A stretch of 64,000 bases of DNA. Origin: Rodentibacter caecimuris. GTDB taxonomy: Bacteria > Pseudomonadota > Gammaproteobacteria > Enterobacterales > Pasteurellaceae. The stretch covers positions 992,001-1,056,000 of the forward strand of contig NZ_BBXJ01000001.1 in NCBI RefSeq assembly GCF_001019715.1, read 5' to 3'. The notes under the pieces were generated by a model that was not told the origin of the DNA, made no database searches, and saw nothing but the letters and a program-made list of their open reading frames with translations. Of the stretch, positions 17,672 through 39,545 are shown in pieces; position 1 is the first letter of the stretch, and the number at the start of each line of letters is the position of its first letter. The translations under genes and the position numbers were made by a program.

Positions 17672-18541
17672 ATGTCCCTTGCCATCGTTTATAGTCGAGC
17701 CTCCATGGGCGTACAAGCCCCGCTTGTTACGATTGAAGTCCATTTAAGTAACGGGAAACCCGGATTTACACTCGTGGGATTACCTGAAAAAACAGTCAAG
17801 GAAGCGCAAGACCGCGTGCGTAGCGCGTTAATCAACGCACAATTTAAATATCCGGCAAAACGTATCACTGTAAATCTCGCCCCGGCGGATTTACCCAAGG
17901 AAGGCGGGCGATTTGATTTACCCATTGCTATTGGAATTCTTGTGGCATCCGATCAATTAGACGGTAGCCGTTTAAAACAACTTGAGTTTGTCGGAGAATT
18001 GGCTCTAACAGGCCATCTGAGAGGGATTCACGGCGTCATTCCTGCTATTCTCGCCGCACAAAAATCCAAACGTGAACTGGTTATTGCTCAGCAAAATGCG
18101 AACGAAGCCTCATTAGTTTCGGAGCAAAATACCTATTTTGCTCAAACTTTACTTGATGTTGTGCAATTTCTTAATAATCAGAAAACACTGCCTCTTGCAA
18201 CTGAATTAAGTCATGCAAGTGCGGTTAATTTCCATCATAATCACGTCGATTTAACCGATATTATCGGACAACAACATGCTAAACGGGCTCTTACTATTGC
18301 CGCTGCCGGACAACACAATTTGCTTTTTCTTGGCCCTCCGGGAACCGGTAAAACGATGCTGGCAAGCCGTTTAACAACACTGTTGCCGGAAATGAGTACT
18401 CAGGAAGCCATTGAAACCGCCTCTGTAACAAGCCTCGTACACAATGAATTAAATCTCCATAATTGGAAACAACGCCCATTTCGGGCACCACATCATAGTG
18501 CCTCTCTGCCGGCATTAGTCGGTGGAGGCTGTGAAAACTAG
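17672..18541 (+). pseudogene. comM: comM, 5' fragment interrupted by the transposon
   Basis: ComM (YifB) is a hexameric AAA+ helicase that promotes branch migration of incoming DNA during natural transformation; the family length is about 505 residues. Here residues 1-286 are native, ending VGGG at 18529. The last three codons before the stop (CEN) are transposon sequence. The N-terminal Lon-protease-like domain and Walker A (GPPGTGKT, about residues 220-227) remain. Walker B (normally LFLDELPEF), the sensor motifs and the C-terminal domain are lost. The 3' half is not present anywhere in this window. The fragment itself contains a typical uptake core (GCAAGTGCGGTTAAT, about 18218). Loss of function is nearly certain. 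Confidence 0.93.
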
Positions 18542-18578
18542 AAATAAATGTCAAAAACAAGAAATAAATGTCGCAAAT
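18530..18578 (+). repeat. Transposon left end with two TnsB-type sites
   Basis: Terminal TGTGAAAACT, then AGAAATAAATGTC at 18540-18552 and again at 18560-18572, exactly 20 bp apart; the second continues GCAAA. No further clear copy lies inside. Confidence 0.8.
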
Positions 18579-18594
18579 CTCTCTCTAGTTTCGC

Positions 18595-18600
18595 TATAAT
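18595..18600 (+). promoter_or_regulatory. Probable promoter for the tnsE-like operon
   Basis: A perfect TATAAT lies 33 bases upstream of the tnsE-like start. The -35 position (about 18572-18577, CGCAAA) is weak and falls on the second TnsB site, so TnsB binding could repress this promoter. The repression is inference. Confidence 0.45.
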
Positions 18601-18632
18601 CCGATCATCAAAGCTTCAAGGGGAAATCAGTT

Positions 18633-20450
18633 ATGTTCCATCTCAATGACACTAATTTCAAACGAGAACCCTATCGTGGATATTGCCCTAAGCACCTTAA
18701 AGATCTCTTTACCAAACCACGTCTTGATATTAAAGGTAACGGCCACTATTTTTCCCAAAATGAATATGTTGTTGCTTGGTATGAATCCGATTTCATTTTT
18801 GAGAATAGAAAAGCCCAAGTTCGCGCCAAAGTGAAACTCGTCAATTTAACAAATCCAATATACATTGGTAAAGATAATGCCGAATATTTGAGTGTTTTGT
18901 ACATTTCAGTTCCCCTCAATTATTTGCATTATTTCACTATTGGTAGTATTTGGAAAAATGGTGTAGCCAAAGAGCAGTTTGCTTTCGAAGAATTTTACAT
19001 TATGGTTAAGCCAGAAAATCAAGACAGTGAACGTGAAAATCTCTCAATGGTTTCATTCAATGAGAGTAGTAATAGTTCAGATAAACCATTTGATTATACG
19101 ACATATACCATTCCTACAGAACATTACAAGTACCGTGATGACCAAAATAAATTACTTTCCATTTCTTACCAAAATCAAAAATTCATTATCCATCCGCTAC
19201 ATATTTTTATGATGCACTATGGGTACTCTACGGACATCAAGCGTATTTTGGCAACATACTCGTTTGACGAGGTAAAAGAACGCCTATTTATAGATAAGGT
19301 CGTTAACAATTTTGATGTAGAGCGCTATGTCGTTTTACCGAAATACTTTGTGAAAAAAGATGCGATTTTCCTCTACCATTTCAAGTATGACGAAGATACT
19401 ACGGGACTAAGAGTAAAAAATCTTGTAAGTCAGTTTAGGTTAAATGTTCGTAATCAAAAACATCCAATAGAAATAGGGTTTTGGCACACACAAAAGGTTG
19501 AATTAAAAATCCGTGGTATTCGACTTGGAAATGCCGTGTTATGCGCAGAAATTATCGGTCTTAATCAGCCTGAGGGTGAAGATATTACGCTAGTGCAATA
19601 TCAATCGAAAGGACAGAAATCGGATAGTAAAACAGAGGAACAGAATAGAGATATAAATAACGTTCCGATTACCAGAATTTATACTCGAGAACCTGAATTG
19701 GATGAGTTACCACTAACCGATAACTCTCCAGATAATCGAACAGTCGAATACAACAAGCGACAATTTGAACTCTTAGGTCGCCAACGCCAAATCAGAGCGC
19801 TCAAGAAAGCACGAGAAGAGCATAATCAGAGAATGAAAATTCTGACTCCAGATGAGATTGGCTCATTGGGTGTAGGTGAATCAGACGGCCGAAATGGTTC
19901 GGTTGGACTAGCTTTCTGTTTCCTTGATGATACACCTGTTGGTAAAAGCTCTAAACTATACAAATTATGGCAACATGCGAAAGCTGTTGCAGAATGGAAT
20001 TATGGCGAAGCTCACTGGTACACACCAAATCTCGGTTTTAGAAATGATGATGAACTCGTTCCTGTTTCCTTAGAAACCAACCGAAGTTTCGATTACCCTG
20101 AAATCGCGATAATTATCCGCCTAGAAATACATGGTGAAACATTTTTCCTGATTGATTTCTCAATGAAACACAGAGATATAAGCATGCGTGGTTTAGGCTA
20201 CAAACCCGATCCAGACGAAGATTTTCTGTACGAAACCGACATGAAAAAGAGTGGGCTATCTGAATTATTGTCTGCGGTTCATTGCTATGAGCATTTACCA
20301 AAAGAATACTTAGAAGACAAGAATAAAGGGAAAACCAAACTCACCACATTTAACCATAGTGAAGCTGACAGCAGTAACTGGGCTTATAACGCAGTACAGA
20401 AATTAACTTCAAAGGCAATTACTAAGCCAATATATTTTAATATTTTATGA
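18633..20450 (+). CDS. TnsE-like transposition target-selection protein
   Basis: A 605-residue protein judged TnsE-like by layout and C-terminal motifs rather than by a search. The C-terminal third contains PEIAIIIRLEIHGETFFLIDFS, which parallels the VLLEVDAS strand of Tn7 TnsE, and ends in a helix with SSNWAYNAVQKLT, parallel to the GWAERVV helix of TnsE. Residues about 240-270 (PLHIFMMHYG) and the KIRGIRLGNAVL block also fit. In Tn7, TnsE binds the sliding clamp and 3'-recessed ends and sends transposition to replicating conjugative DNA. The start has GGGGAAAT upstream. Its ATGA overlap with the helicase gene shows coupling. Its place at the end opposite tnsABC is unlike Tn7. If not TnsE, it is an unknown element-borne protein. 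Confidence 0.6.
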   Translation: MFHLNDTNFKREPYRGYCPKHLKDLFTKPRLDIKGNGHYFSQNEYVVAWYESDFIFENRKAQVRAKVKLVNLTNPIYIGKDNAEYLSVLYISVPLNYLHYFTIGSIWKNGVAKEQFAFEEFYIMVKPENQDSERENLSMVSFNESSNSSDKPFDYTTYTIPTEHYKYRDDQNKLLSISYQNQKFIIHPLHIFMMHYGYSTDIKRILATYSFDEVKERLFIDKVVNNFDVERYVVLPKYFVKKDAIFLYHFKYDEDTTGLRVKNLVSQFRLNVRNQKHPIEIGFWHTQKVELKIRGIRLGNAVLCAEIIGLNQPEGEDITLVQYQSKGQKSDSKTEEQNRDINNVPITRIYTREPELDELPLTDNSPDNRTVEYNKRQFELLGRQRQIRALKKAREEHNQRMKILTPDEIGSLGVGESDGRNGSVGLAFCFLDDTPVGKSSKLYKLWQHAKAVAEWNYGEAHWYTPNLGFRNDDELVPVSLETNRSFDYPEIAIIIRLEIHGETFFLIDFSMKHRDISMRGLGYKPDPDEDFLYETDMKKSGLSELLSAVHCYEHLPKEYLEDKNKGKTKLTTFNHSEADSSNWAYNAVQKLTSKAITKPIYFNIL

Positions 20451-23128
20451 ATAAAAAACAACGTGTGATTGTTACCCCGACATTTTGGGGTAAACTTTTT
20501 GGAAGAATAAAAAGTGTTGAATTTCAGCAAAACAAAGTTATTGTTACTGGCAAAAAGAATAATATTGCTGAATACAATCTAGGGAAAACTCTCGAATTTC
20601 CGATTTTAGAAAATGCTTTCTTTGGTAATAAATTATCTTTTAAAGATGATAATAAAGAGGTTGTGTTATCAAAACTTGCTAAAAAACAAACTAATAGCCT
20701 ATTACTTGAAATCGAAAAAGCAGTAGCCTCCAATATTCAAGTAAAAGTAAAAGAGGCTTTTCAACAATTTACTAATTTAGCCGAAAACCAATATCTCAGA
20801 GATTCCGATATACCTACTTTGAATGATCATGTAAGGTGGTCTGTTGTTTCCTATGGGAATAACAAAGAACATTTCCAAAAATACTTTGATGAGAGTTTCG
20901 TTAAGAAAATCAAATATATATCTTCACTATTTCCTATAGATATTAAAAATGCTCAAACAATCAGAAAAAAATATGAGCAATATATTTTAAATCATCGTAA
21001 ACATTTCTTTGATGTAATTGAATCTAATCCGCTTACCGAACAACAAAGATTGTCAGTCATTCGAAGCAATGACATCAATATGGTTCTTGCAGCCGCAGGA
21101 ACAGGTAAAACATCTGTGATGGTAGCGAAAGCATTAGATCTAATTGATTCTGGGGCTTGTAGAAGTGAAGATATTCTTATCCTCGCATATAACCGAGATG
21201 CAGCAACCGAGTTATCCGAACGCTTACAAGAACGTGCGCGAGAAGCAAATTTAGATCTAGAAAATAGCCCTAGTATCTCTACATTCCATGCTCTTGGTCG
21301 AAGAATTATTAAAGAATGTGGTAAATCAGTCCACTTGTCAAAATTTGCCGAAGATCCAATGAAGTTAGATAGATAGTTCAACAAATGGTTAGAGAACTAC
21401 ATCAAAGAAGATCCTGATAATCTAGCAAAATTCATTCAGCTCGCATACCAACCTATCGATCCATTCCAATTCAAAACAAAAAAGGAATACGATAGATATG
21501 TAAATGACAATGACTATCGAACCTTACAAGGAGAACGCGTTCGTGGTTATCAAGAGTTATTGATTGCGAACTGGCTTTTTAGTCATAGCGTAAAATATGA
21601 GTATGAGCCAAGGTATGTATCAAAACGCCGTATCGAGGTTGGTTTTGACTACAAACCTGATTTCTCTTTGGGTGATGGTGTTTACCTTGAACATTTCGGC
21701 ATTGACCGACAAGGTAGAACTCGCGCAGATATTAACGCGCAGGAATATAATGCCAATATCCAAAGAAAACGTGAGTTACACGCCGAACATAATACAACAT
21801 TACTGGAGACATACCACTATAACTGGGTGGAAAATACGTTATATAAACGACTAGAGCAATTGATGAATGAACAGTTCATTCCTCTGAAGCCAAAATCACA
21901 ACAAGAGATTTTAGATGCACTCAATGAATCAGGAATCTTCAAAGAAAACAAAAATCGCTATTTGAAGTGCCTTCAAGCTATTCGTACAGAGCGATTAGAC
22001 TATCAACAAATCTTAAAACGTCTAACTGATGCGAAAATTGTCTATGCTAAAGAATATGCGACATTGCTCATGCGTATTCATGATGCCTACGTTAAAGAAC
22101 TACGTAGCGTAAATGAAATCGACTTTGACGATATGATTTTGTTGGCTACTCAACTGGTGAAAACAGCTGAGTTTAAACCTAAATGGAAACACATTTTAGT
22201 AGATGAATTTCAAGATATTTCTATGGCTCGATTGGAGTTATTGAAAGAGATTTATACTAAAGGGCCTCGACCAATTTGGACTGTTGTTGGAGATGACTGG
22301 CAATCAATCTATCGTTTCTCTGGCGGTAAACTAGAAGTTACTACGCGATTTAATGATATGGTCGGCTCACATACGCTAAGTAAACTAGAAAAAACCTACC
22401 GCTATAACAATAGTATTGCTGACACCGCAGGTCAATTCATTATGCAAAACCCTGAGCAGTATCAGAAAAATGTTGTAACGCATACAAAAGTTGCTGATTC
22501 GTGTGTTCATCTGTACGACTCTCATGTCGTAAAGGATGAAAAATCAGAACCCAATATCAGTTTAAAAGCCTCTGCAATATTAAAGCTGATACGTCAAAAA
22601 GCACCTGAAGCTACTGTCGCGATTTTGGCTAGATACCGTTACCTTTTAGAAGATGCGAAAAGTGTAATCAAAGATAAGAATGTTAAATTTTGGACATTCC
22701 ACGGCTCAAAAGGGTTGGAAGCAGATTACTGCATTTTACTTGGTTTCTTCCAAGGAAAAGTCGGATTTCCCAACCAAAATAAAGAAGAAGCCGTTGTAGA
22801 AGCATTGCTTCCTATGCTAGATAGTTTTCCACACTCAGAAGAACGTAGGTTATTTTATGTGGCATTAACGCGTGCGAAAAAAGAAAGTTATTTGATCGCA
22901 GATGCGAACGCGCCATCAGAATTTATCAATGAATTATTATCACCGAAATACAAGATAGATATTGTGTCAAAACGATTCCAAGAACGTTATCGGACAATCT
23001 TTAAATGTAATGAATGTAGCACTGGCTATTTCGTGATGAAACAAGGTAAATTTGGTCAGTTTTGGGGATGCTCAGGATATGGAATCAAAGGCGATCAATG
23101 TACGAATACTCGTAAGTATTTTATGTAA
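20447..23128 (+). pseudogene. Helicase IV (HelD/UvrD-type) with zinc finger, cut by one in-frame TAG
   Basis: An 893-codon superfamily 1 helicase gene overlapping the tnsE-like stop (ATGA). Domain order matches E. coli helicase IV: an N-terminal specific domain (about residues 1-205), LTEQQRLSVI and Walker A AAAGTGKTS (about 219-227), WKHILVDEFQDIS (Walker B), VGDDWQSIYRFSGG, LARYRYL, TFHGSKGLEADY and RRLFYVALTRAK. The C-terminus adds a topoisomerase-type C4 zinc ribbon (CNEC, CSGYG..CT). A TAG at 21374-21376 splits it after codon 309, but the same frame stays open before and after (NKWLENYIKED follows). Everything else is intact, so this is a recent nonsense change, a sequencing error or a suppressed stop. 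A downstream ATG (21560) could yield a product lacking Walker A, which would be inactive. Confidence 0.85.
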
Positions 23129-23339
23129 TATGCTATTTAGGGTTATTCAGGAAAGAACATATTTTTAATTTCAGATTCCCTGAAAGAAATAAAAATGTCA
23201 ACTAATATTGCAGGATTTTTTCCTTTGATACAACACAATTTTATTAAACTACTTATTAACGTTATTTCATTACAGAGTAACGGATAACTTTGACATCGAT
23301 CTAAATTCCTTACTTATCTTTTATTGAGATTTTCGGGAT

Positions 23340-23470
23340 TATTTACTAGTAAAAAATTTATCTTCAGAACGAGCCACCAATACAAGATTACCGCCTTTCT
23401 GTGCATGGATTTTTGCCAGTTATAAACCGATACCGTTTGATGCGCCTGTAATTAATGCTGTTTGTGTCAT
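23340..23470 (-). pseudogene. Short-chain dehydrogenase (SDR) relic
   Basis: Starting at ATG 23470 the reading is MTQTALITGASNGIGL, stop, then LAKIHAQKGGNLVLVARSEDKF, which is the NAD-binding N-terminus of an SDR (GASNGIG motif) with an in-frame TAA at codon 17 and no remainder beyond about 43 codons. It lies beside the TetR gene and has a TetR-like dyad upstream, so it was probably the regulated target. The remaining bases 23129-23339 show no gene. Confidence 0.7.
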
Positions 23471-23490
23471 ATGCAATCCCTATAAATAAA

Positions 23491-23504
23491 TGATTAGTCA
23501 ATCA
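23491..23504. promoter_or_regulatory. TetR-type operator-like dyad upstream of the SDR relic
   Basis: TGATTAGTCAATCA is a dyad (TGATT/AATCA) 20 bases upstream of the relic's ATG. It resembles the dyad in front of the TetR gene at 24134 (TGATTAATTAGTCA), which suggests a common regulator. Confidence 0.4.
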
Positions 23505-23550
23505 ATTAAATTTGTAAAAAATAAGCGGAATCTAACCGCTTGTTTGTCTG

Positions 23551-24117
23551 TTAGTGATGAGAAATCGCTTTCCACATCATCGTAAAACCGAGCATTTTAT
23601 AAATATCACGCTTGGTCGGTTCTTGTAAAATCTGTTGAATCGTCGCTTCAACCATCGCTTCCATCATTTTGATCGCAAACTCCAGTGGCGGAAAAAAGAG
23701 CTTATCCGCTTCCGCTGCGCTGAACATCCGTTGCATCGGTAAAAAGATCTGCTTCGCTTCTTGTCGGGTTTCTTCCGTAAGAATGGTTGAAACCTCTAAC
23801 TGTTGCAAGGTTTGGCGCGCTTCTCGATGTTCAATACCCCAATCGATATAGTGATTCCATAAATGCAACAACTGCGATGCAAATTCCGCTTGCGGAAAAT
23901 TCGGCATTACCGCTTGCGCAATGTGGCGTTTAATCTCCAAATAAGTGGCATTGAGCAACGTTTCTTTACTCTCAAAATAGGTAAATAATGATCCTGTTGC
24001 CACGCCGGCATTTTTTGCAATCAACGCCGTGGTTGCCGATAACCCTTGCGTTGCAATCGTCTGAATGGTTGCTTGAATTAAGGTGTTACGTTTATCCGAA
24101 CTTAACGGACGAGCCAT
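23551..24117 (-). CDS. TetR/AcrR family transcriptional regulator
   Basis: A 188-residue regulator with an N-terminal TetR helix-turn-helix: TLIQATIQTIATQGLSATTALIAKNAGVATGSLFTYFESKETLL (about residues 12-55). The C-terminal ligand domain is generic. It is divergent from the DUF411/multicopper oxidase pair and next to an SDR relic. Because a CueR-like promoter serves the copper pair, the TetR protein more likely governs itself and the SDR. The ligand is unknown. A short hairpin AAGCGG/CCGCTT (23523-23541) follows the stop. Confidence 0.85.
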   Translation of the reverse strand: MARPLSSDKRNTLIQATIQTIATQGLSATTALIAKNAGVATGSLFTYFESKETLLNATYLEIKRHIAQAVMPNFPQAEFASQLLHLWNHYIDWGIEHREARQTLQQLEVSTILTEETRQEAKQIFLPMQRMFSAAEADKLFFPPLEFAIKMMEAMVEATIQQILQEPTKRDIYKMLGFTMMWKAISHH

Positions 24118-24129
24118 ATCGATCCTTAT

Positions 24130-24151
24130 TAAATGATTAATTAGTCATTTA
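24130..24151. promoter_or_regulatory. TetR operator-like palindrome
   Basis: TAAATGA, 8 bases, TCATTTA: a 7-bp-armed palindrome 12 bases upstream of the TetR start codon, in the position of an autoregulatory operator. Confidence 0.55.
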
Positions 24152-24207
24152 TTATAAAGAGGAAAAAAGAAAAATCAACCTATTTTGTAAAAATTGCAAC
24201 ATCGCCC

Positions 24208-24238
24208 TTGACCTTAACCCTAGGTCAAGCTTTAACAT
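24208..24238 (+). promoter_or_regulatory. CueR/MerR-type copper promoter for DUF411-multicopper oxidase
   Basis: TTGACCT, 7 bases, AGGTCAA forms a perfect 7-bp-armed dyad (24208-24228) overlapping a TTGACC -35 box. The -10 candidate TAACAT lies 19 bases after the -35, the overlong spacing that MerR-family activators correct. This is what a CueR-controlled copper promoter looks like. No cueR gene lies next to it, so the regulator would act from elsewhere. Confidence 0.6.
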
Positions 24239-24274
24239 TGCGCCATTCAATCTCAATCAAAATAAGGACATCGT

Positions 24275-24730
24275 ATGAAATTACATAAACTCACCCGCTC
24301 ATTGTTGCTGTTAAGTTTAGGTCTCACGGCATTTGCCCAAGCGCAAACACTTTCAATGGAAGTGTGGAAAAGTCCAACTTGTGGCTGTTGTAATGAATGG
24401 ATCAGCTATATGCAAAAAAACGGTTTTGAGGTTAAAGTCAACGAAACAGGCAATTATGATGCCCATAAGCGCTTTAACATTAAAGATGAACACGCTTCTT
24501 GCCACACGGCAGTGATTGATGGCTATGTGATTGAAGGACATGTACCTGTAGAGGATATCAAACGTTTACTCGCAGAAAAACCTGATGCCGTTGGTTTGTC
24601 CGCTCCTGGCATGCCGATTGGCTCACCCGGCATGGACGGTGAAGCCTACGGCGGACGTAAAGATCCTTATGATGTTGTTTTAATTAAGAAAAACGGTGAA
24701 AGTGAAGTGTTCAAATCCTATAACCAATAA
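24275..24730 (+). CDS. DUF411 periplasmic metal-binding protein
   Basis: A 151-residue exported protein; a signal peptide ends near ALAQAQ (residues about 1-24). The mature part has the DUF411 marks: WKSPTCGCCNEW (CxCC), HASCHTAVIDGYVIEGHVP and the C-terminal GMPIGSPGM. The Cys, His and Met ligands point to copper(I). The family is found in copper resistance loci. An AAGGAC ribosome site lies about 9 bases upstream. The multicopper oxidase starts 11 bases after its stop, so the two form an operon, probably to bind and oxidise periplasmic copper. Confidence 0.85.
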   Translation: MKLHKLTRSLLLLSLGLTAFAQAQTLSMEVWKSPTCGCCNEWISYMQKNGFEVKVNETGNYDAHKRFNIKDEHASCHTAVIDGYVIEGHVPVEDIKRLLAEKPDAVGLSAPGMPIGSPGMDGEAYGGRKDPYDVVLIKKNGESEVFKSYNQ

Positions 24731-24741
24731 GAGGCGAAAAA

Positions 24742-26289
24742 ATGAAACGTCGAGATTTTTTACGTTATGGCATTGGGCTTAGCTTAGCCAGTAGCTCGCT
24801 TTATAGCCTTGCGAATATGATGAACCACGCACAACACGGCAATATGGCGATGATGCATTCAGCCCCTACTAGCTTAATGCCTGTCGAAGCGATGCCCTCA
24901 GGCTTATCACTCAATGGTATATTACCAAAGCTTGCTAACCAATCCACTCAAGCTGGACTATTCAAAGCCACTTTAAAAGCAGAGCCCATTAAAATTCGCC
25001 TCGCAGACAATAAAGAAACGGAATTTTGGGCTTATAACGGACAGCTACCTGGGCCACAAATTGAAGTATTTGAAGGCGATACCGTAGAAATTGAATTTAT
25101 CAATCACCTACCACAACCCACAACGGTGCATTGGCACGGTTTAGATGTGCCAAATGAAGCGGATGGTAACCCTATGGATATGATTGAACCACAAGGGAAA
25201 AAAATCTATCGCTTTACTCTACCCGAAGGCAGTGCAGGTACATATTGGTACCATCCTCATCCACATCATTATGTTTCCGAGCAAGTCTATAAAGGCTTAG
25301 CAGGTACTTTCGTTGTGAAAGCAAAAAATGATCCGCTTGCACACCTTCCTGAACAACATTGGGTTATTTCTGATCTGCGTTTAAATGCCGATGGTACCAT
25401 TCCACCAAACACGATGTTAGATTGGATGAACGGACGTGAAGGGGAATTTGTGTTAATCAACGGCCAATATCAGCCCCAAATTCAAGTGACAACGAATGAA
25501 CGCCTCCGTATTTGGAATGCAACGAGCGCCCGTTATTTTCGTTTAAACATTCCAGGGGTGAAATGGATTGTGGTGGGGACAGAGGGCGGTTTACTTGAAA
25601 AACCACGCACGCCTGTTGATGAACTGCTACTCACACCTGCAGAACGCGTTGAAGTGATTATGGTGGGTGAAACGCAAGGCAAGGCCAATTTACAAAGTAG
25701 CTATTATGATCGCCGTAAAATGATGGTGCAGGAACAGCCTAAAGATCTCACTTTAGCGACAATTCAGGTGAAACCAGAACCTGTTCAGTTACCTGAAAGC
25801 TTAAGAAGTTTGCCTAATTGGGACGAACCAAAACAGATTCGCCAAATTCACTTTAGTGAAAAAATGATGAACCACACCAATATGCCAATGATGGATCATA
25901 CCAAACATAGCTCCGCTATGATTACGACAGACAATCCTCTTCCGCCCATGATGGACGGTATGTTCCTAATCAATGGACAAACTTTTGATATGAACCGCAT
26001 TGATTTTGTTACGAAAGTCAATGACGTAGAACAATGGGAAATTTTCAATGAAAGCCATATGGATCATCCGTTCCATTTACACGGCACTCAATTTGAAGTG
26101 ATTCAACATACATTAAACGGCAAAACCTTTAAACCAGAAGGCAGAGCGTTAAAAGATGTGGTCAATTTACGCCCTTATGAAAAAGTGATTATTCGCTTTA
26201 AGCAAGGACACTCGGGGTTGAAAATGTACCATTGCCATATTTTAGAACATGAAAATCTCGGCATGATGGGAATGTTTAAAGTGGAATAA
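24742..26289 (+). CDS. Multicopper oxidase (CueO/CopA-like) with Tat signal
   Basis: A 515-residue cupredoxin-type oxidase. The N-terminus MKRRDFLRYGIGLSLASSS is a Tat signal, so it is folded before export to the periplasm. All four copper-binding boxes are present: HWHGLD, YWYHPHPHH, HPFHLHGTQ and HCHILEHENLGMM. A Met/His-rich stretch (about residues 373-396, with MMNHTNMPMMDHTKHSS) resembles the copper-binding loop of CueO. It probably oxidises Cu(I) to Cu(II). It forms an operon with the DUF411 gene and ends at a bidirectional terminator. Confidence 0.9.
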   Translation: MKRRDFLRYGIGLSLASSSLYSLANMMNHAQHGNMAMMHSAPTSLMPVEAMPSGLSLNGILPKLANQSTQAGLFKATLKAEPIKIRLADNKETEFWAYNGQLPGPQIEVFEGDTVEIEFINHLPQPTTVHWHGLDVPNEADGNPMDMIEPQGKKIYRFTLPEGSAGTYWYHPHPHHYVSEQVYKGLAGTFVVKAKNDPLAHLPEQHWVISDLRLNADGTIPPNTMLDWMNGREGEFVLINGQYQPQIQVTTNERLRIWNATSARYFRLNIPGVKWIVVGTEGGLLEKPRTPVDELLLTPAERVEVIMVGETQGKANLQSSYYDRRKMMVQEQPKDLTLATIQVKPEPVQLPESLRSLPNWDEPKQIRQIHFSEKMMNHTNMPMMDHTKHSSAMITTDNPLPPMMDGMFLINGQTFDMNRIDFVTKVNDVEQWEIFNESHMDHPFHLHGTQFEVIQHTLNGKTFKPEGRALKDVVNLRPYEKVIIRFKQGHSGLKMYHCHILEHENLGMMGMFKVE

Positions 26290-26301
26290 TCCACTAATGT
26301 G

Positions 26302-26364
26302 CAAGCGGTCAGATACTTGTGAAAATTTGCAAATTGCAAAATTCAGGCAAGATCTGACCGCTTG
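26302..26364. terminator. Bidirectional terminator built from Actinobacillus-type uptake signals
   Basis: CAAGCGGTCAGAT (26302) pairs with ATCTGACCGCTTG (26352) between the convergent oxidase and OYE genes. The right arm contains ACAAGCGGTC, the core of the Actinobacillus pleuropneumoniae-type uptake sequence, and the loop has TTTGCAAATTGCAAAA, which resembles its downstream part. Confidence 0.75.
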
Positions 26365-26369
26365 TTACA

Positions 26370-27509
26370 TTAAATATCGCGCGGTGACCATGCCTGCCCG
26401 ATAACTGGCGGAAGCCATGCGCCACCTTTCACACAGAAACTCCACAATAAATCTGGAATGCCGTAATGATCAGCTTTTTCAGGATCTAATTCAGCCACAA
26501 TTTCGCTCTCCTTGCCTGTCGCAATGAGTGTCGCAATAGTCGGATTGATCATCACCGTTTTGCCTAGCGCAATAAATTCCGCCCAGCCGGTTTGATAAGC
26601 CTTTAAAATTTGCTCTGCAGTAAAGAGATTGCCGACACCAATCAGCGGTAATTTTCCACCAATTCGCTCGTGTACCAATTGCATACGAGTGAGAGACGTA
26701 TCTGCGCCACGGCGCGCTTGCTTGTAAAAATCCCATAGCGAGATATGTAAATATTGCAACGGTTTTTCCACCAAGGCATCAATCAGCGCGAAAGTATCCG
26801 CCATGGTTAAACCGTTGTCGCCTGGTTCTTCCGGTGAAAAACGGTAGCCGATAATAAAATCAGGGCGTTGATGTTTTGCGCGCACGCCGACAACCGCCTC
26901 CACCACTGCCAGTGGAAACGCTAGACGTTTTTCAAGGCTACCACCCCACGCATCCGTGCGGCGATTGGTCTGTGCTGAATAAAACTGTTGGATCAAATAA
27001 TTATTGGCACCATGAATTTCCACACCGTCAAAGTCTGCTCGAATCGCTAAATCTGTCGCATTACCAAAGGCTTGAATCAGAGAATGAATTTCCGCCTCGG
27101 TTAAAGCGCGTGCGCCTACTTCTGCGTTATCGCTTGGTGCTACTACATCTTTCCCGTGTAACAAATCCGGAATTGACTTATCGCCACCGTGGTGAATTTG
27201 CAAAATCGCTTTCGCGCCTTGCGCTTTAATCAGCGCAGCAGTACGCGTTAAGCTGTCTAAATGTTGTTCGGAAATCGCCTCAGGCTGTCCGTGAAAGGCT
27301 TTTCCGTTTTCAGCGACCAACGTTGCGGCAGTAATAAATAAGCCGATATTTTCTGCTCGGTTACTTAAAAAACGCTGTTCTTGCTCGCCTAAAGTACCAT
27401 CTGCATTAGAGGCGAAATGCGTCATCGGCGCAACGGCTAAGCGGTTACGGATTTCAATGCCGTTATTTAAGATATAAGGTTGAAAAAGTGGGGTAAATGC
27501 TGGGTTCAT
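26370..27509 (-). CDS. Old yellow enzyme family NADH:flavin oxidoreductase
   Basis: A 379-residue FMN-dependent TIM-barrel oxidoreductase. Landmarks are NRLAVAPMTHFASN, LQIHHGGDKS (the usual catalytic HxxH/N region), FDGVEIHGANNYLIQQF, DAWGGSLEKRLAFPL and IGVGNLFTAEQ. These enzymes reduce activated C=C bonds or nitro groups; the substrate here is unknown. Its neighbour on the same strand is a LysR regulator 122 bases upstream, the likely controller. No frameshift or missing motif. Confidence 0.88.
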   Translation of the reverse strand: MNPAFTPLFQPYILNNGIEIRNRLAVAPMTHFASNADGTLGEQEQRFLSNRAENIGLFITAATLVAENGKAFHGQPEAISEQHLDSLTRTAALIKAQGAKAILQIHHGGDKSIPDLLHGKDVVAPSDNAEVGARALTEAEIHSLIQAFGNATDLAIRADFDGVEIHGANNYLIQQFYSAQTNRRTDAWGGSLEKRLAFPLAVVEAVVGVRAKHQRPDFIIGYRFSPEEPGDNGLTMADTFALIDALVEKPLQYLHISLWDFYKQARRGADTSLTRMQLVHERIGGKLPLIGVGNLFTAEQILKAYQTGWAEFIALGKTVMINPTIATLIATGKESEIVAELDPEKADHYGIPDLLWSFCVKGGAWLPPVIGQAWSPRDI

Positions 27510-27631
27510 ATTGCTTTCCTTTATTCAATAAAACACGAAATTATTTACTCATTATAACGCACTATGCATTGAGCTATGGTAACTATTCTCTCTTATATTG
27601 ATAGCTATAAACATACAAGCCAGCCTGTAGC

Positions 27632-28528
27632 CTAACCATATCTTTTTTTCAAAATTTCTGTTAAACAATCGAATACAAATAATACTCGAGGTGATGTAAT
27701 AGTTTGATAGGGACGATACAAATACAGTTGCCATTTATCAATGGGGATTTCGGGGAACAGTTTAACCAACTCACCGCAGTCAAAATGCGGTTTGCAGAAC
27801 AGTTCGCTGATAAAGCCGACCATGTTGCCCCGTAGCACCGCTTTTAGCTCACATTCAGGGTCGGAGCTGTAAAAAAGCACTTCTCTCGGTAGCAATTTTT
27901 GCTCGTCATTCATCGCTAAATCCCACGGACGACCTGTTTCCACGTTAATCGGCAAGGAAAATGGGAAATTGCGCTGCAAATCGTCTAAATCTTTTGGCAT
28001 TCCCAATCGTTCCAGCAATTTCGGCGAAGCGACAATCCAATCTTGCAAATCGGCAATTTTGCGGATAATAAAATTCGGGTTCGGTTCAGGTCCGATACGT
28101 AAGCCGATATCAATGCGATGTGCCACCGCATCAAATTTGGTCATATCTTCACGCCAATCAATGACCAGTTGCGGATACGGTTCAAGTGCTTGCAATAATT
28201 CATCTAAAATCAAATCATTGTCTCGCCAGCGGGGAAAAGTAATCCGCACCACGCCTGCCATGTCGTCCGTTTGCTGTTTGCCCAATTTAAACAGATTGTC
28301 GGTGTCCGCCAGCAGTTGTTTCGCCTTAATCAAAAACTGCTCACCAAAACTAGTGAGCCGAATTTGGCGCGTATTCCGCTTAAACAGTTGCTCGCCTAAC
28401 TCCTGTTCCAATTCCGCAATCACACGGGTCACCACCGACGGCGAAACCGCTAGCTGCATTGCCGTTTCCCGAAAACTCAACGTTTCGCTGGCAAGGCAAA
28501 AATATTTAATCGCATCGAGTTTGTTCAT
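27632..28528 (-). CDS. LysR family transcriptional regulator
   Basis: A 298-residue LysR-type regulator. The N-terminal winged HTH is typical (LDAIKYFCLASETLSFRETAMQLAVSPSVVTRVIAELEQELGEQLF, about residues 3-48), followed by the effector domain. It precedes the OYE gene on the same strand, so it probably controls it in response to an unknown electrophile. Position 150 onward shows an uncharged binding-domain pattern without special features. Confidence 0.87.
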   Translation of the reverse strand: MNKLDAIKYFCLASETLSFRETAMQLAVSPSVVTRVIAELEQELGEQLFKRNTRQIRLTSFGEQFLIKAKQLLADTDNLFKLGKQQTDDMAGVVRITFPRWRDNDLILDELLQALEPYPQLVIDWREDMTKFDAVAHRIDIGLRIGPEPNPNFIIRKIADLQDWIVASPKLLERLGMPKDLDDLQRNFPFSLPINVETGRPWDLAMNDEQKLLPREVLFYSSDPECELKAVLRGNMVGFISELFCKPHFDCGELVKLFPEIPIDKWQLYLYRPYQTITSPRVLFVFDCLTEILKKRYG

Positions 28529-28547
28529 TGGATTGCTCCTTCTTCAA

Positions 28548-28613
28548 AAAGAGCGGTCAGATTTTTGATCACTTTGGCTATTGCAAAATCTTGTCAAAAT
28601 CCGACCGCTCTTT
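28548..28613. terminator. Inverted-repeat terminator between GNAT and LysR genes
   Basis: AAAGAGCGGTC (28548) and GACCGCTCTTT (28603) form an 11-bp stem with AAAATC-type inner pairing. The GAGCGGTC form is a variant uptake-like repeat. Confidence 0.65.
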
Positions 28614-28615
28614 CG

Positions 28616-29083
28616 TTATAGTTTCTGTTCCATCAAGGTCTTAAGTGGCTCAAGCCCTAAACGTTCATAGAAACGAAATGCCCCTTGATTGTCGTTCCAA
28701 ACGTGCAACGTTACGCTATCGCAACCGTTCTCTTTGGCGTATGCCACCACGTGTTGATACAATTTCTCGCCAATTTTTTTACCCCGTTGCGAAGCGTCCA
28801 CACAAAGGTCGTCAATGTACAACACTTTGCGATCAAATAACGCCGGAACGCCTTGTGTAATTTGATAAATGCAGAACGCATAGCCTTGCACCGTGCCGTT
28901 TTCATCTTCATACACAAAGATCGGTTTTTGTTCGTCTGCCATTAAAGCTAAAATTTCTTCATCATTGTATTTGCGTTTACCCGCTTGGAAAATATCAGGG
29001 CGAGCTTCAACGTGAACAGCGTGAACTTGGTATAACAACTCGGCAATACGAGCGACATCATCGGCTTTTGCAAGTCTAATCAT
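28616..29083 (-). CDS. GNAT family N-acetyltransferase
   Basis: A 155-residue single-domain acetyltransferase. The acetyl-CoA loop is visible as LCVDASQRGKKIGEKLYQHV (R/QxxGxG/A, about residues 92-111), followed by CDSVTLHVWNDNQGAFRFYERLG. The substrate cannot be deduced. It follows the MarR gene by 8 bases on the same strand, so it is likely part of the PACE-MarR-GNAT operon. Confidence 0.85.
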   Translation of the reverse strand: MIRLAKADDVARIAELLYQVHAVHVEARPDIFQAGKRKYNDEEILALMADEQKPIFVYEDENGTVQGYAFCIYQITQGVPALFDRKVLYIDDLCVDASQRGKKIGEKLYQHVVAYAKENGCDSVTLHVWNDNQGAFRFYERLGLEPLKTLMEQKL

Positions 29084-29091
29084 GCTTTCTC

Positions 29092-29517
29092 CTAAATCGT
29101 GTTTAGCTGTGTAGCAAGTTGATTTAATACCAGTTCGGTATCATCAAGCAACTGCTCAAATTTCTCCATACCGAACTGCTGGCTTACTTGCAATTCTGCT
29201 TCGGTTAGCCGAGCAATAATCGGGTCGATAAAAATTTTACCGCTTGCACTTAAAGCAATCAACTTACTGCGTTTGTCGTTCTCATCAGGCAGAAAAACCA
29301 AAAAACCTTTTTGGTCTAGTTGTTTACAAACAGAGGTTACCGTTTGTTTCGGCAAACTCCATTTATCGCCAATAGCAGTAGGCGAAGTCGCACCATAGCG
29401 ACCGATGGAATACAAAAAATGCAATTCATTTAAGGTGAGCTGGTGTTGCTTCGCTACACTAGCATAAATGCTCGACAGCTGCGCTGCCAGCTCCACCAAT
29501 TTATCAAAGGGGTTCAT
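29092..29517 (-). CDS. MarR family transcriptional regulator
   Basis: A 141-residue winged-helix regulator. The HTH region is LNELHFLYSIGRYGATSPTAIGDKWSLPKQTVTSVCKQLDQKGFL, followed by the wing LPDENDKRSKLIALSASGK. The start MNPFDKLVEL at 29517 is chosen because a longer reading would run deep into the upstream PACE gene; the remaining overlap is 14 bases, which implies coupling. It probably represses the PACE pump through the palindrome at 29938. The ligand is unknown. Confidence 0.85.
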   Translation of the reverse strand: MNPFDKLVELAAQLSSIYASVAKQHQLTLNELHFLYSIGRYGATSPTAIGDKWSLPKQTVTSVCKQLDQKGFLVFLPDENDKRSKLIALSASGKIFIDPIIARLTEAELQVSQQFGMEKFEQLLDDTELVLNQLATQLNTI

Positions 29518-29929
29518 TTTTACGCTCCAAAAATTTGACACGAGTAATGTCATAAAGCCAGTTAAACACCAAGGCATACAGCATAATCAGCAAACTCAAA
29601 CCAATATCCGCTAAAAAGGCGTGCCACAGGCTTAAATCTAATAAATATGCAACTACGGGAATGGTAAACAGCAATAAGGTACACTCAAAGCAGACGGTAT
29701 GCAAAATGCGTAATTTTAGGCTACGTTCTTCCCGTTTGCTGGTAAAAATTTTATCAAACACATAGTTAAAGAAGAAGTTAAGTATCATTGCTATTACAGA
29801 CATGGCAATACCTGTTCCTGTGGCGGCTTCAAGGCTGAAATCTCCCACCAATAATACTGCAACCGCACCGATTGCCATTGCCCCAATTTCAAATAATACC
29901 GAGTGAAAAATACGTTCGTAAAAAGTCAC
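29504..29929 (-). CDS. PACE family efflux transporter
   Basis: A 141-residue inner-membrane protein with four predicted membrane helices arranged as two tandem bacterial transmembrane-pair units. Typical PACE residues are the start ERIFHSVLFEIGAMAI, NFFFNYVFDKIF in the first unit and RILHTVCFECTLLLFTIPVVAYLL in the second, ending YALVFNWLYDITR. The founding member, AceI of Acinetobacter, exports chlorhexidine and short diamines. It heads an operon with MarR and GNAT genes behind an operator palindrome. Confidence 0.88.
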   Translation of the reverse strand: MTFYERIFHSVLFEIGAMAIGAVAVLLVGDFSLEAATGTGIAMSVIAMILNFFFNYVFDKIFTSKREERSLKLRILHTVCFECTLLLFTIPVVAYLLDLSLWHAFLADIGLSLLIMLYALVFNWLYDITRVKFLERKNEPL

Positions 29930-29937
29930 AAAATAAT

Positions 29938-29978
29938 CCTATATCGTACTAAATAAATGCATTATAGTACGATATAGG
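29938..29978. promoter_or_regulatory. MarR-type operator upstream of the PACE operon
   Basis: CCTATATCGTACTA (29938-29951) and its exact inverse TAGTACGATATAGG (29965-29978) are 14-bp perfect arms around a 13-bp spacer, starting 9 bases upstream of the PACE ATG. The position over the promoter suggests repression by the neighbouring MarR protein. Confidence 0.65.
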
Positions 29979-30026
29979 AGTAAATGCAACGCTATTTGCA
30001 AATTTCTAAGTAGATTTCACCGCTTT

Positions 30027-30428
30027 CTAATCTAACGCTTTAATCCCTTGAATAATTTGGCAATGGTCAATGTCTTCCGCCTGACAGTCAATTAATGGCT
30101 CAAGCAATGCTTTAATTTGATTGAGCTGATCGATTTGATGCTCAATTTGGATTAAATGCTGTTTCGTTAATTTATCCACCAGTTCGCAACGATTATGTGG
30201 ATTAGTTTGCAACATGATTAGTTGCTTAATTTCCTCTAAGCGAAAGCCGATCATTCGACAGCTTTTAATAAAATGGAGCTGGTTGAGCTGTTTTTCACTA
30301 AACAAGCGATAGCCGTTTGGTTGCCTTGTTGCCGTATCAATTAGCCCCAGTTTTTCATAGTAACGAATGGTTTCCAAATTCACGCCACTTTCTCGGCTTA
30401 ATTCACGGATTTTAAAAAATTTTGTCAT
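30027..30428 (-). CDS. MerR family metal-responsive regulator
   Basis: A 133-residue MerR-family activator with HTH FKIRELSRESGVNLETIRYYEKLGLI and a dimerisation helix. Metal ligands are suggested by Cys in NPHNRCELVDK (about residue 79) and a C-terminal CQAEDIDHC pair, the pattern of CadR/ZntR/PbrR-type sensors. It is divergent from the CDF transporter across a classical MerR promoter and so probably activates it in the presence of zinc, cadmium or lead. Which metal cannot be decided. Confidence 0.88.
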   Translation of the reverse strand: MTKFFKIRELSRESGVNLETIRYYEKLGLIDTATRQPNGYRLFSEKQLNQLHFIKSCRMIGFRLEEIKQLIMLQTNPHNRCELVDKLTKQHLIQIEHQIDQLNQIKALLEPLIDCQAEDIDHCQIIQGIKALD

Positions 30429-30434
30429 GGATGC

Positions 30435-30465
30435 TTGACCCTGTAATTGCTACGGAGTTTATAGT
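30435..30465 (+). promoter_or_regulatory. MerR-type promoter for the CDF transporter
   Basis: TTGACC (30435) and TATAGT (30460) are separated by 19 bases, and the spacer holds the imperfect dyad ACCCTGTA-N5-TACGGAGT (30438-30458). Overlong spacing with a centred dyad is the mark of MerR-activated promoters. Confidence 0.8.
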
Positions 30466-30500
30466 TTACGCCAAGTTAAACTAAAACACACGGAGAGACT

Positions 30501-31112
30501 ATGGCTTGTACGACTTCTTGCTGTACTTCATACAGTACACACCTTTCCCCTAAATATCGCAAAGCATTATGGATTGCTCTTGGACTAAATATCACTCTGT
30601 TTTTCATTGAAATCGTGATGGGCGTAAAATCGGGTTCTGTTTCTTTACTTTCGGATAGCTTAGATTTTTTTGGCGATAGCGCCAATTATGTGATTAGCTT
30701 GATCGTGTTGCCCATGGCGTTAAGTTATCGTGCCAAAGCCTCTTTATTAAAAGGAGCAACCATGGGTGGATTTGGCTTATTTATTTTAATCACAACCCTC
30801 TATCGTTGGGCTTATGGCGAACTGCCAAACCATAGTGAAATGAGTGTAGTCGGTGTGCTTGCCTTATTCGCCAACTTAACAGCCTTGTGGGTGCTTTATC
30901 ATTTTCGTGATGGCGATAGCAATATGAAGAGTGTTTGGATCTGCTCCCGCAATGATGCGATAGGGAATATAGCTGTCATTTTGGCGGGGATTGCGGTCTA
31001 TTTTACCCAGTCGAAATATCCCGATTTGATCGTTGCTTTCGTTTTGGCTTTATTAGCTCTGCAAGGTGCGAAAGAGATTATTACTAAGGCATTAATGGAA
31101 TTGAAAGGATAA
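30501..31112 (+). CDS. Short CDF-type cation transporter
   Basis: A 203-residue membrane protein with about six helices, related to the cation diffusion facilitator family but lacking the usual C-terminal cytoplasmic domain. SLLSDSLDFFGDSANY in helix 2 carries the D-x3-D metal site and WICSRNDAIGNIAVIL in helix 5 the second site. The N-terminal CTTSCCTSY is a cysteine cluster that may bind metal. It is driven by the MerR-type promoter and is probably a proton-coupled exporter of a divalent metal. AACACACGGAGAGACT precedes the ATG. Confidence 0.82.
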   Translation: MACTTSCCTSYSTHLSPKYRKALWIALGLNITLFFIEIVMGVKSGSVSLLSDSLDFFGDSANYVISLIVLPMALSYRAKASLLKGATMGGFGLFILITTLYRWAYGELPNHSEMSVVGVLALFANLTALWVLYHFRDGDSNMKSVWICSRNDAIGNIAVILAGIAVYFTQSKYPDLIVAFVLALLALQGAKEIITKALMELKG

Positions 31113-31118
31113 GAAAAT

Positions 31119-31170
31119 AGCGGTGAGTTCCAGTAAAAAATTTACAAATTTTTAAGTGGATCTCACCGCT
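31119..31170. terminator. Bidirectional terminator between CDF and NudF genes
   Basis: AGCGGTGAG (31119) pairs with CTCACCGCT (31162) between convergent genes. The right arm extends to ACCGCTTGT, the inverse of an Actinobacillus-type uptake core. Confidence 0.65.
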
Positions 31171-31177
31171 TGTATAG

Positions 31178-31792
31178 TTATTTCTGATATTTTTGATAAT
31201 TCAACTGCAACCACTGTAAGCCCACAACAGCAATCACATTATCAATTTTCCCTTCAACAACCCATTGATACGCTTGCTCACGGCTCACAACGTGGACGAG
31301 AATATCCTCGCCTTCTTCTTCCAAGCCATAAACGCCGCCAACTTGGGTGCTATCGACTAAGCCTAAAAAGAGATGTAAACGCTCAACCGCACCACCTGGG
31401 CTGTCCCAAATGCTTAAGGCGCGTTCCACATTGCTGACGGTTAAACCTGCTTCTTCGTAGCTTTCACGGATAGCGACATTTTCTGGTGTTTCCCCTTCAT
31501 CTACCATGCCTGCAATCAGTTCCACTAGCCAAGGGGATTGGTTGCTGGTTGGATCGTAAGCACCAATGCGAACTTGTTCGACTAACACTACGGCGTCTTT
31601 GACAGGATCATAGGCGATTAATGCAGCTGCGGCACCTTTAATCATTAATTCACGCACAATTTCACCGCTTACTCCACCATTAAATAACTTGTGGCGGAAA
31701 TACATTTTTTTCATGGTGAAATGACCTTGATAAACCACTTCTTCTTTTAAAATCTCTAAATCTTTTTGTTGAAATTGATGAATTTTAGTCAT
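31178..31792 (-). CDS. nudF: ADP-ribose pyrophosphatase NudF
   Basis: A 204-residue Nudix hydrolase that splits ADP-ribose to AMP and ribose-5-phosphate. The Nudix box is complete: GMVDEGETPENVAIRESYEEAGL (G-x5-E-x7-REx2EEx-G/A). Other NudF marks are VVLVEQVRIGAYDPTSNQSPWLVELIAG and ESPG-like WDSPGGAVERLHLFLG. The start MTKIHQFQQKD at 31792 is chosen for the AAGGAGAGAGTC site directly before it. A housekeeping-type gene carried on the element; the host presumably has its own copy. Confidence 0.88.
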   Translation of the reverse strand: MTKIHQFQQKDLEILKEEVVYQGHFTMKKMYFRHKLFNGGVSGEIVRELMIKGAAAALIAYDPVKDAVVLVEQVRIGAYDPTSNQSPWLVELIAGMVDEGETPENVAIRESYEEAGLTVSNVERALSIWDSPGGAVERLHLFLGLVDSTQVGGVYGLEEEGEDILVHVVSREQAYQWVVEGKIDNVIAVVGLQWLQLNYQKYQK

Positions 31793-31802
31793 GACTCTCT
31801 CC

Positions 31803-32129
31803 TTAGCTTTTACGTAAACGGTCGGTATGAACGACATAGAGTGCAACAACCATCACTAAAATGGCAAGAGCAAAAAGTAGCGTATAACGTGGACGTTTTT
31901 TGTAGATCTGATGACGAACTTTGTGCTTGTGGTAAGTTTCACTATTAAGTTGCAATACAGCATCATCCTGCGATTGCATAATTTCAAGTGCAGAGTGTAA
32001 GGTACTAAGACGTTCGTCTAAAAGTGTAAGATGTTCTACAACACGCTTACGTTCTCGTTGTAATTCTTCAATCTTAGTTGAAATCTGAGAAAAATAAATT
32101 GGTACTCGGCAAGTATTGTGAAACTTCAT
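31803..32129 (-). CDS. Hypothetical protein with coiled coil and C-terminal membrane segment
   Basis: A 108-residue protein I do not recognise. Residues about 18-55 (ISTKIEELQRERKRVVEHLTLLDERLSTL) are likely a coiled coil; residues about 82-101 (YTLLFALAILVMVVALYVV) form one transmembrane helix, with basic residues on both sides. It stops 10 bases upstream of nudF on the same strand. The start is uncertain because no clear ribosome site is seen. Confidence 0.5.
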   Translation of the reverse strand: MKFHNTCRVPIYFSQISTKIEELQRERKRVVEHLTLLDERLSTLHSALEIMQSQDDAVLQLNSETYHKHKVRHQIYKKRPRYTLLFALAILVMVVALYVVHTDRLRKS

Positions 32130-32170
32130 TCAAAATCACGGTTATAATATCAAACTTGAAATTGAATAAA

Positions 32171-32218
32171 ATTGTCGCAAATTCACAATGGTTTGTAATT
32201 GTTCATTTGCGACATAAT
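32171..32218. repeat. Internal inverted copies of the transposon-end motif
   Basis: ATTGTCGCAAAT (32171-32182) and ATTTGCGACATAAT (32205-32218) face each other. ATTTGCGACAT is the exact inverse of ATGTCGCAAAT at 18568-18578, part of the second left-end TnsB site. It may be a relic end of an older or nested element. The surrounding 32130-32290 has no gene I can support. Confidence 0.45.
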
Positions 32219-32306
32219 GGCGTCGATTACGTTCAGGTAAATTAAGAGCAGCCTCTTCAGAAGAAATAGAAAATATTAGAAAATATATTAAATGAGGGAA
32301 ATTTAT

Positions 32307-32618
32307 ATGACTGAAGACTTAGATAATACAGGGTTAAAGGAAGTTTTATTTTATTCCATAGTGGATGAGTTTTTGATTTATAAGCATTCTAAAAAGTTTA
32401 TTTCTACCTTATTTAGTCATCCTCCAGGAGAGTGGAGTGATGTTAATAAGATATTTAGAGATAATGGTTTTATATTTGGTTCTGAAGATTTAAATGTTAA
32501 TGTAAGCTGGTTAAAGGATATTGATGGCTCTGATTCTCCTTATAGAATGCTCGTGTTTTTTGAGTCAGAAAATATGTTTTCTCAGGTCGTTGTTTTTAAT
32601 GTAAATACTCTAGATTAA
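32307..32618 (+). CDS. Hypothetical AT-rich small protein (possibly 5' half of a frameshifted gene)
   Basis: A 103-residue acidic protein without recognisable family. The start MTEDLDNTG at 32307 has GAGGGA about 8 bases upstream. The codon use is far more AT-rich than the neighbours. It ends VFNVNTLD, and the next frame continues at once as NVEDVYFCENI, so the two readings may be one gene of about 195 residues with a one-base change. Small AT-rich acidic genes of this kind are often immunity proteins, but nothing here proves it. Confidence 0.5.
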   Translation: MTEDLDNTGLKEVLFYSIVDEFLIYKHSKKFISTLFSHPPGEWSDVNKIFRDNGFIFGSEDLNVNVSWLKDIDGSDSPYRMLVFFESENMFSQVVVFNVNTLD

Positions 32619-32619
32619 T

Positions 32620-32892
32620 GTGGAGGATGTTTATTTTTGTGAGAATATAAATATTAATTTATTTTATGATCTTGTATTAAGTGGTAAGTTAGAAAGTAAA
32701 AATAATTTTGCTTTAGAAGAAACTTTTGATGATTTTATGAAAAGATGTATTAGAGGTAGAGAAAATCTATATTTCTATTTTAGATTATATAAAGATCATT
32801 ATTTTAATTATGAAAATATACCTATTATAAAAACTATAAGCATAGAAAGATTTAATTCATTTTTGAGAGATCTTAAACTCTATTTAACTTAA
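32620..32892 (+). CDS. Hypothetical small protein, second half of the pair
   Basis: A 90-residue reading from a GTG at 32620, one base after the preceding stop and in the next frame; the frame itself opens only at 32614. Poor ribosome site and an immediate abutment make it more likely to be the C-terminal part of a frameshifted gene than a separate protein. No family recognised. The stretch 32893-33091 holds an ACAAGCGGT uptake-type core at 33011 and nothing else I can support. Confidence 0.4.
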   Translation: MEDVYFCENININLFYDLVLSGKLESKNNFALEETFDDFMKRCIRGRENLYFYFRLYKDHYFNYENIPIIKTISIERFNSFLRDLKLYLT

Positions 32893-33091
32893 ATGGCGTT
32901 ATTCCACAAAGTATGCTATTTATAATTTAATATTGTTAGAAGCCTTGAAAATAAATGTTTCTTTATCATAAAAATTATTTACAGCATACAATGTAGAACA
33001 CAGGGGTAATACAAGCGGTTATTTATGATTAAATCTTTGCAAATTCTAGCGATAAATTTACCACTTATATTTGATACAAGTGGCTTTTCGA

Positions 33092-33307
33092 TTACCCGAA
33101 AATATCCCTATCTATACGAAATAGCTTACGCCATTCACTAAGGTAATATTTTTCGAATCGATTTCCTTTAATGATAGCTAATCGCTTATCAAAGCGTCTT
33201 AATATATGTGGAATAGTGCCGATAACAATCATTTCATCGTTTTTCTGTTCCTCTTCAAGCCATTGTTTAAATTGAGCTTTTAAGGTTAAATTTTTTGTAC
33301 TGTTCAT
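33092..33307 (-). CDS. Hypothetical small protein downstream of the transposition genes
   Basis: A 71-residue basic, charged protein (MNSTKNLTLKAQFKQWLEEEQKN ending LFRIDRDIFG) that I do not recognise. The start at 33307 is supported by TTGGAGAGAAGC immediately upstream. It lies 120 bases beyond the zinc-finger gene on the same strand, so it may be the last gene of the tns unit or the first cargo gene. Confidence 0.5.
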   Translation of the reverse strand: MNSTKNLTLKAQFKQWLEEEQKNDEMIVIGTIPHILRRFDKRLAIIKGNRFEKYYLSEWRKLFRIDRDIFG

Positions 33308-33427
33308 GCTTCTCTCCAACTAGTTGATAGGTTAATAACTGGACGGCACTTTAACAGTTAAGCGATTTCTGTCGAGAAATGCGTTTCATTTTTTCGAGCA
33401 AGATCGCAAAAATAACATTTTTTCTCG

Positions 33428-39386: not shown

Positions 39387-39394
39387 AATAATTT

Positions 39395-39545
39395 GACACC
39401 TATTTCATGTTTTTTAAAAAATTTGACAGCTATTTCTAGTTTTTGCGACATTTATTTCTAGTTTTTATACCGTAAAAAATAGGATAAAACCTTATCCTTT
39501 CGTTGAATGTATAGCTAATTATGACATTTATTTCTAGTTTTGACA
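39395..39545 (-). repeat. Transposon right end with four TnsB-type sites
   Basis: Read on the minus strand the end is TGTCAAAACT. AGAAATAAATGTC occurs at 39523-39535 and 39447-39459; weaker forms AGAAATAGCTGTC (39425-39437) and TGAAATAGGTGTC (39395-39407) follow toward tnsA. More sites at the tnsA end than at the other end mirrors the asymmetry of Tn7. Confidence 0.8.

Follow-up and report, generated by a model that had tools for sequence, protein, structure and literature searches.

A distant TnsE as the likely second target selector of a comM-type Tn7-like element in Rodentibacter caecimuris, with a probable cargo helicase beside it

The left-end genes and the assignment of TnsE

A 64,000-nucleotide stretch of Rodentibacter caecimuris DNA (C1:992001-1056000, part of a 2.7-Mb genome; hereafter the window) was analysed, in which a Tn7-like element of the Tn6022 type occupies positions 18530..39545. 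Directly inside its left end (TGTGAAAACTAG..., from 18530) lie an open reading frame (ORF) of 605 amino acids (aa) and a helicase frame. The core genes tnsA-tnsB-tnsC-tniQ-tnsF are found at the other end on the minus strand, from 39386 down to 33428. The evidence below makes it very probable that the 605-aa protein is TnsE, acting as the second target selector of this element, and that the neighbouring helicase is interchangeable cargo, broken here.

The 605-aa ORF (18633..20450, plus strand) is intact. TnsE matches were found in 17 of 140 Pasteurellaceae genomes; two weak fragments (G097 and G084) were left out, giving 15 loci, among which G109 (L024), with a truncated TnsE, was counted and not aligned. 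The alignments A1, A2 and A4 contained 14, 12 and 11 rows, respectively, and all counts of helicase and TnsE neighbours refer to the stretch fetched around each locus. An hhalign comparison with eight canonical TnsE proteins (A4 against A3) gave a score of 40.9, above all of 150 shuffles, and the score of the C-terminal part exceeded 100 of 100 shuffles. An AlphaFold2 (AF2) model of the protein revealed entries of the TnsE C-terminal domain as its top three fold matches in the PDB (5d16 and 5d17; relative 9d5l), with 9-12% identity across the aligned fold. The gene sits in a tnsABC-bearing element in the window, as it does in those relatives whose stretch reaches the operon. The sequence-only reading had called this protein TnsE-like, and profile, predicted fold and locus together support its assignment as a TnsE of the distant comM-element type.

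Codon comparison within the family (n=13, without L024 and without L037 and L050, which have a short end) shows that TnsE is under purifying selection; against the truncated relative L024, the ratio of nonsynonymous to synonymous substitution rates (dN/dS) is 0.16 over 385 codons. Between the window, L025 and L029, TnsE is only 34-49% identical, while TnsC, TniQ and TnsF of the same elements are 68-92% identical. Because TnsE diverges far more than these three proteins, the selector seems to have been exchanged or to evolve fast. The stretch IPQLELARVLF, which is conserved in Tn7-type TnsE and may be its clamp-binding region, reads IIHPLHIFMMHYG at the place judged equivalent by eye and is not recognisably kept; therefore, clamp binding cannot be assumed.

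Insertion sites and target selection

The left junction lies in comM, whose 5' half (17672..18541, plus strand; Pfam ChlI and Mg_chelatase) stops as comM proper at 18529, the ORF extending a few codons into the element. The right flank is not comM but the N-terminal part of the type I restriction gene hsdR (39515..40240, minus strand, gene part from 39546; Pfam HSDR_N), cut by the right end of the element. The 3' half of comM adjoins a second copy of the element, 1.65 Mb off along the contig (or about 1 Mb on a circular contig), and so does a C-terminal fragment of hsdR (L022 14244-15365, T1RH-like_C). The two 21-kb copies (18530-39545 and L022/L023) are near-identical, and comparing them placed both ends of the element (TGTGAAAACTAGAAATAAATGTC... 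and ...TGACATTTATTTCTAGTTTTGACA); the copies have swapped their flanking halves of comM and hsdR. Inside the second copy, the two ends of the contig overlap over about 9.8 kb. The expected Tn6022-type features are present, namely TnsA, TnsB, TnsC, TniQ, a TnsF-like fifth gene and insertion in comM with a 5-bp duplication (GAGGC), which each comM half bears, but on different copies. At the junctions, to which the search was confined, the hsdR flank pair showed neither a target duplication nor the middle part of hsdR. An inversion or a misassembly explains the exchange of flanks, and the hsdR flanks are most simply read as a second landing, in that gene. GC skew sampled in 19 stretches and the window changed sign several times and did not place the origin or the terminus.

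At the left end of the 15 TnsE loci, the 5' half of comM was found in ten, a contig edge in one and other DNA in four; in two of the ten (L024 and L036), comM is broken at a different place from the rest. In the four genomes with other DNA at that end, comM reads as an open frame of 517-547 aa, compared with 303 aa in the source genome. The copy in Mannheimia sp. USDA-ARS-USMARC-1261 is bounded by GGTAT on both sides, within what by eye looks like a Sel1-repeat gene; tnsF and tnsA of this element appear frameshifted. The Gallibacterium copy adjoins genes that by eye resemble those of P2-type phages, and its contig stops short of the right end. The approach was checked on Aggregatibacter kilianii, whose element is flanked within comM by GCGGC at each end. 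Since the Mannheimia copy has its 5-bp duplication at a non-comM site, and comM in that genome reads open, sites other than comM are used, which supports the view that comM-type elements also land elsewhere.

TnsF together with TniQ targets comM (PMC10293859, Faure et al. 2023), and Tn7 TnsE directs insertion to replicating or conjugating DNA via the beta-clamp and 3'-recessed ends (PMC5371812). According to PMC11406308, nearly all glmS- and comM-targeting elements encode a TnsE homologue, and mechanistic information on TnsE is lacking outside prototypic Tn7. In the proposed mechanism, TnsE is encoded at the left end and faces the tnsABC-tniQ-tnsF operon; TniQ and TnsF would send the element to comM, and TnsE, by analogy, most likely recruits TnsC and TnsAB to other DNA. 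Its targets would probably be replication-associated structures as in Tn7, given its family membership. The second, replication-directed route proposed from the sequence is plausible and has been published before (PMC10293859, PMC11406308). Landings outside comM are supported here; that TnsE directs them, and that replication is the driver, we infer. It is quite possible, although slightly less likely than not, that TnsE of the Pasteurellaceae comM elements is an exchangeable, fast-diverging module (34% identity, with TnsC at 92%) that provides a live second route. It would direct the element to non-comM sites such as hsdR, a Sel1-repeat-like gene or DNA flanked by phage, so that comM may remain intact, and its sequence would depart from that of Tn7 TnsE in the stretch where the latter may contact the clamp.

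Alternatively, the copies outside comM could have arisen by mis-targeting of TniQ and TnsF or by recombination between copies, with no part played by TnsE, an explanation that deserves serious weight even though we think it somewhat improbable. The missing duplication and missing middle part at the hsdR copy fit this explanation, as do the exchanged flanks in the source genome and two of the four loci with other DNA at the left end, L030 and L032, where no tns genes were found in the fetched stretch. However, the duplication in Mannheimia, in a genome where comM is open, requires at least one direct insertion. Mis-targeting is also at odds with the behaviour of AjTn6022, for which 96.7% of insertions were at E. 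coli comM without pTarget, using a helper plasmid without tnsE (PMC10293859).

A rival reading, in which the 605-aa protein is unrelated to TnsE and serves an accessory or defence role at the left end, is very unlikely. Single-sequence scans with it gave no match in Pfam, NCBIfam, PADLOC or PDB sequences, and the score of its N-terminal half, where TnsE has tandem SSB/PriB-like domains, was not above shuffles; both results would suit such a protein. The profile comparison was likewise weak from alignment A1 alone. The Pfam TnsE_C profile failed to reach the protein in six genomes scanned and found one canonical TnsE over 369 genomes of the class; a scan of genome contigs with the single protein and a scan of viral contigs with A1 gave no relative. 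Nevertheless, the full-length and C-terminal scores above all shuffles and the top fold match argue against an unrelated origin, as does the position of the gene, which is the usual one in TnsF-bearing elements. The same conclusion was reached for Tn6022 in PMC10293859, where the TnsE of comM elements is described as remote and only weakly detected, and where the two TnsE branches are less than 10% identical with similar predicted structures. A distant TnsE in comM-type elements is therefore already described.

The helicase frame and its distribution

The helicase frame starts at 20447, overlapping the TnsE ORF by ATGA, and runs to 23128. An in-frame TAG (21374..21376, plus strand), common to both element copies, splits it into 309 and 583 codons. 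The 5' piece (20447..21376, plus strand, 309 aa, ending at the TAG) resembles a HelD-like UvrD-family helicase and contains the Walker A motif (AAGTGKT), while the 3' piece (21377..23128, plus strand) contains the rest of the UvrD motor, a weak endonuclease-I-like stretch and one C4 zinc-ribbon match. The second copy is 100% identical over 18542-23200, TAG included. Judged from its sequence, the helicase in the source genome is a pseudogene with an in-frame stop; of the two coupled genes proposed earlier, the ATGA overlap is confirmed, but the helicase is not one open gene.

PRK11054 (DNA helicase IV) is the best NCBIfam model for both pieces, which were searched apart and scored 109 and 270 bits against a cut-off of 543. 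The zinc-ribbon match in the second piece (E 1.7e-4, 21.8 bits) is under the Pfam cut-off of 32. The description as a HelD-type helicase with a zinc ribbon therefore agrees with the best models, but below their cut-offs and in a broken frame. The UvrD N- and C-terminal domains (PF00580, PF13361) are found in the window pieces and in the intact relative L025, and the helicase of the intact relatives is 955 aa long with zinc-ribbon matches, compared with a PRK11054 model length of 684. A PD-(D/E)XK-like insert is only hinted at, by Pfam Phage_endo_I matches that stay under the cut-off (E 0.0056 and 0.0021) and by endonuclease I in the PDB (E 0.28). The PADLOC models GajB and RTasHel also match the helicase. 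We rejected Gabija (GajB) as an identity, as no GajA OLD/TOPRIM nuclease adjoins it in the window, where the neighbours are TnsE and TetR, followed by DUF411 and a multicopper oxidase; the mention of UvrD in PMC8649781 concerns Gabija.

Both intact relatives carry an ORF of about 120 aa (about 0.42 kb) between TnsE and the helicase, which the window lacks; the window TnsE is extended at its C-terminal end and terminates within the start of the helicase. Because the ORF is missing and the extension reaches the helicase start, a deletion seems to have produced the ATGA overlap. The ORF of about 120 aa lies directly after tnsE in L025 (10774-11133), L029 (5076-5438) and L028 (10574-10921), with part of it in L026, and by eye it has a signal-peptide-like start.

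The helicase was found in three of the 140 Pasteurellaceae genomes, each time beside TnsE and twice intact, and hence at three of the 15 TnsE loci; the other 12 carry other genes there. Downstream of tnsE in L031, L036, L033 and L028 is varied multi-gene DNA. By eye, parts of it look like defence operons, for example with a QueC-like gene in L031 and L036. The two intact relatives share 88% (N-terminal part) and 97% (C-terminal part) identity in the helicase, 92% in TnsC, 85% in TnsF and 72% in TniQ, but only 34% in TnsE. Helicase matches occurred in 107 plasmid records, of which five relatives were examined, and in six of 369 genomes of the class (two candidates scored per genome), one being the source genome and the other five examined. 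The fetched stretch around these relatives outside the family lacked matches to TnsE and other Tns proteins at E 1e-3 in every case (5/5 plasmid and 5/5 genomic). Five of the seven plasmid-record relatives of TnsE were examined and had no close match to the helicase; a distant UvrD match in L054 (28% over 316 residues) is about 10 kb from TnsE. As the helicase is patchy at TnsE loci, its identity is decoupled from that of TnsE and its outside relatives lack Tns genes, we read it as swapped cargo that is inherited independently of TnsE. Several cargo genes replace one another at this spot, and the helicase is one of them, probably serving DNA maintenance or defence.

The proposal that a TnsE-coupled helicase makes or holds the DNA that TnsE targets, for which no published report of such a pair was found in a literature search mostly outside subscription journals, has in its favour that all three helicases stand just after TnsE and that the two intact ones differ by a dN of 0.027 and a dS of 0.358 (ratio 0.075), but it is highly improbable even for the elements with an intact helicase, where the DNA so made or held would be 3'-recessed, given the separating ORF in both intact relatives, the independent inheritance of the helicase, the 12 TnsE loci without it, the ten outside relatives without Tns genes and the broken frame in the window.

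The core operon, cargo and comparison with known systems

The core operon, all on the minus strand, comprises tnsA (38724..39386; Pfam TnsA N and C), tnsB (36806..38761; Mu-transpos_C and a weak rve), tnsC (35919..36806; TniB), tniQ (34843..35961; TniQ) and tnsF (tniE; 33428..34882). The 484-aa tnsF product is by homology a putative comM target selector; its place and size are as in PMC10293859, it has a hint of a DZR_2 zinc ribbon, and homologues occupy the same operon position. Directly downstream is a small conserved ORF (33092..33319, minus strand, 75 aa, TTG start). ORFs of 70-80 aa were seen directly 3' of tnsF on the same strand in eight loci (window, L024, L025, L029, L031, L034, L035 and L095). 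None was found at E 1e-4 in L037 (tnsF frameshifted), L038 (tnsF remnant) or the plasmid relatives L052, L053, L055 and L056, and the L029 version, the only one scanned, had no Pfam match. This ORF could be a sixth core gene. The cargo includes TetR, DUF411, multicopper oxidase, FMN oxidoreductase, LysR, GNAT, MarR, cation efflux and NUDIX genes.

In Pasteurellaceae, selection maintains a likely second target selector in comM-type Tn7-like elements, and natural copies outside comM in genomes with an open comM make the proposal that a comM-type TnsE works directly testable. The helicase is removed as a false lead.

The element resembles the Tn6022/AbaR-type comM elements (PMC10293859) in its tnsA-tnsB-tnsC-tniQ-tnsF operon, its insertion in comM and its distant TnsE, encoded close to the left end, far from the core genes and on the other strand. 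It differs in its Pasteurellaceae hosts and its cargo, and its TnsE is 20% identical to that of an A. baumannii plasmid relative (L053). With Tn7 TnsE (5d16, 5d17; relative 9d5l), the protein shares the fold of the C-terminal domain, a colinear profile and a likely role as second target selector, whereas its gene lies outside the tns operon, identity in the fold is low and IPQLELARVLF is, by eye, not recognisably kept. The helicase is closest to helicase IV (HelD), although far below the PRK11054 cut-off and, in intact relatives, longer. Like Gabija GajB and the other UvrD helicases that Tn7-like elements carry (PMC8649781), it is a UvrD-family motor and a cargo gene, but in the window it stands without a GajA-type partner.
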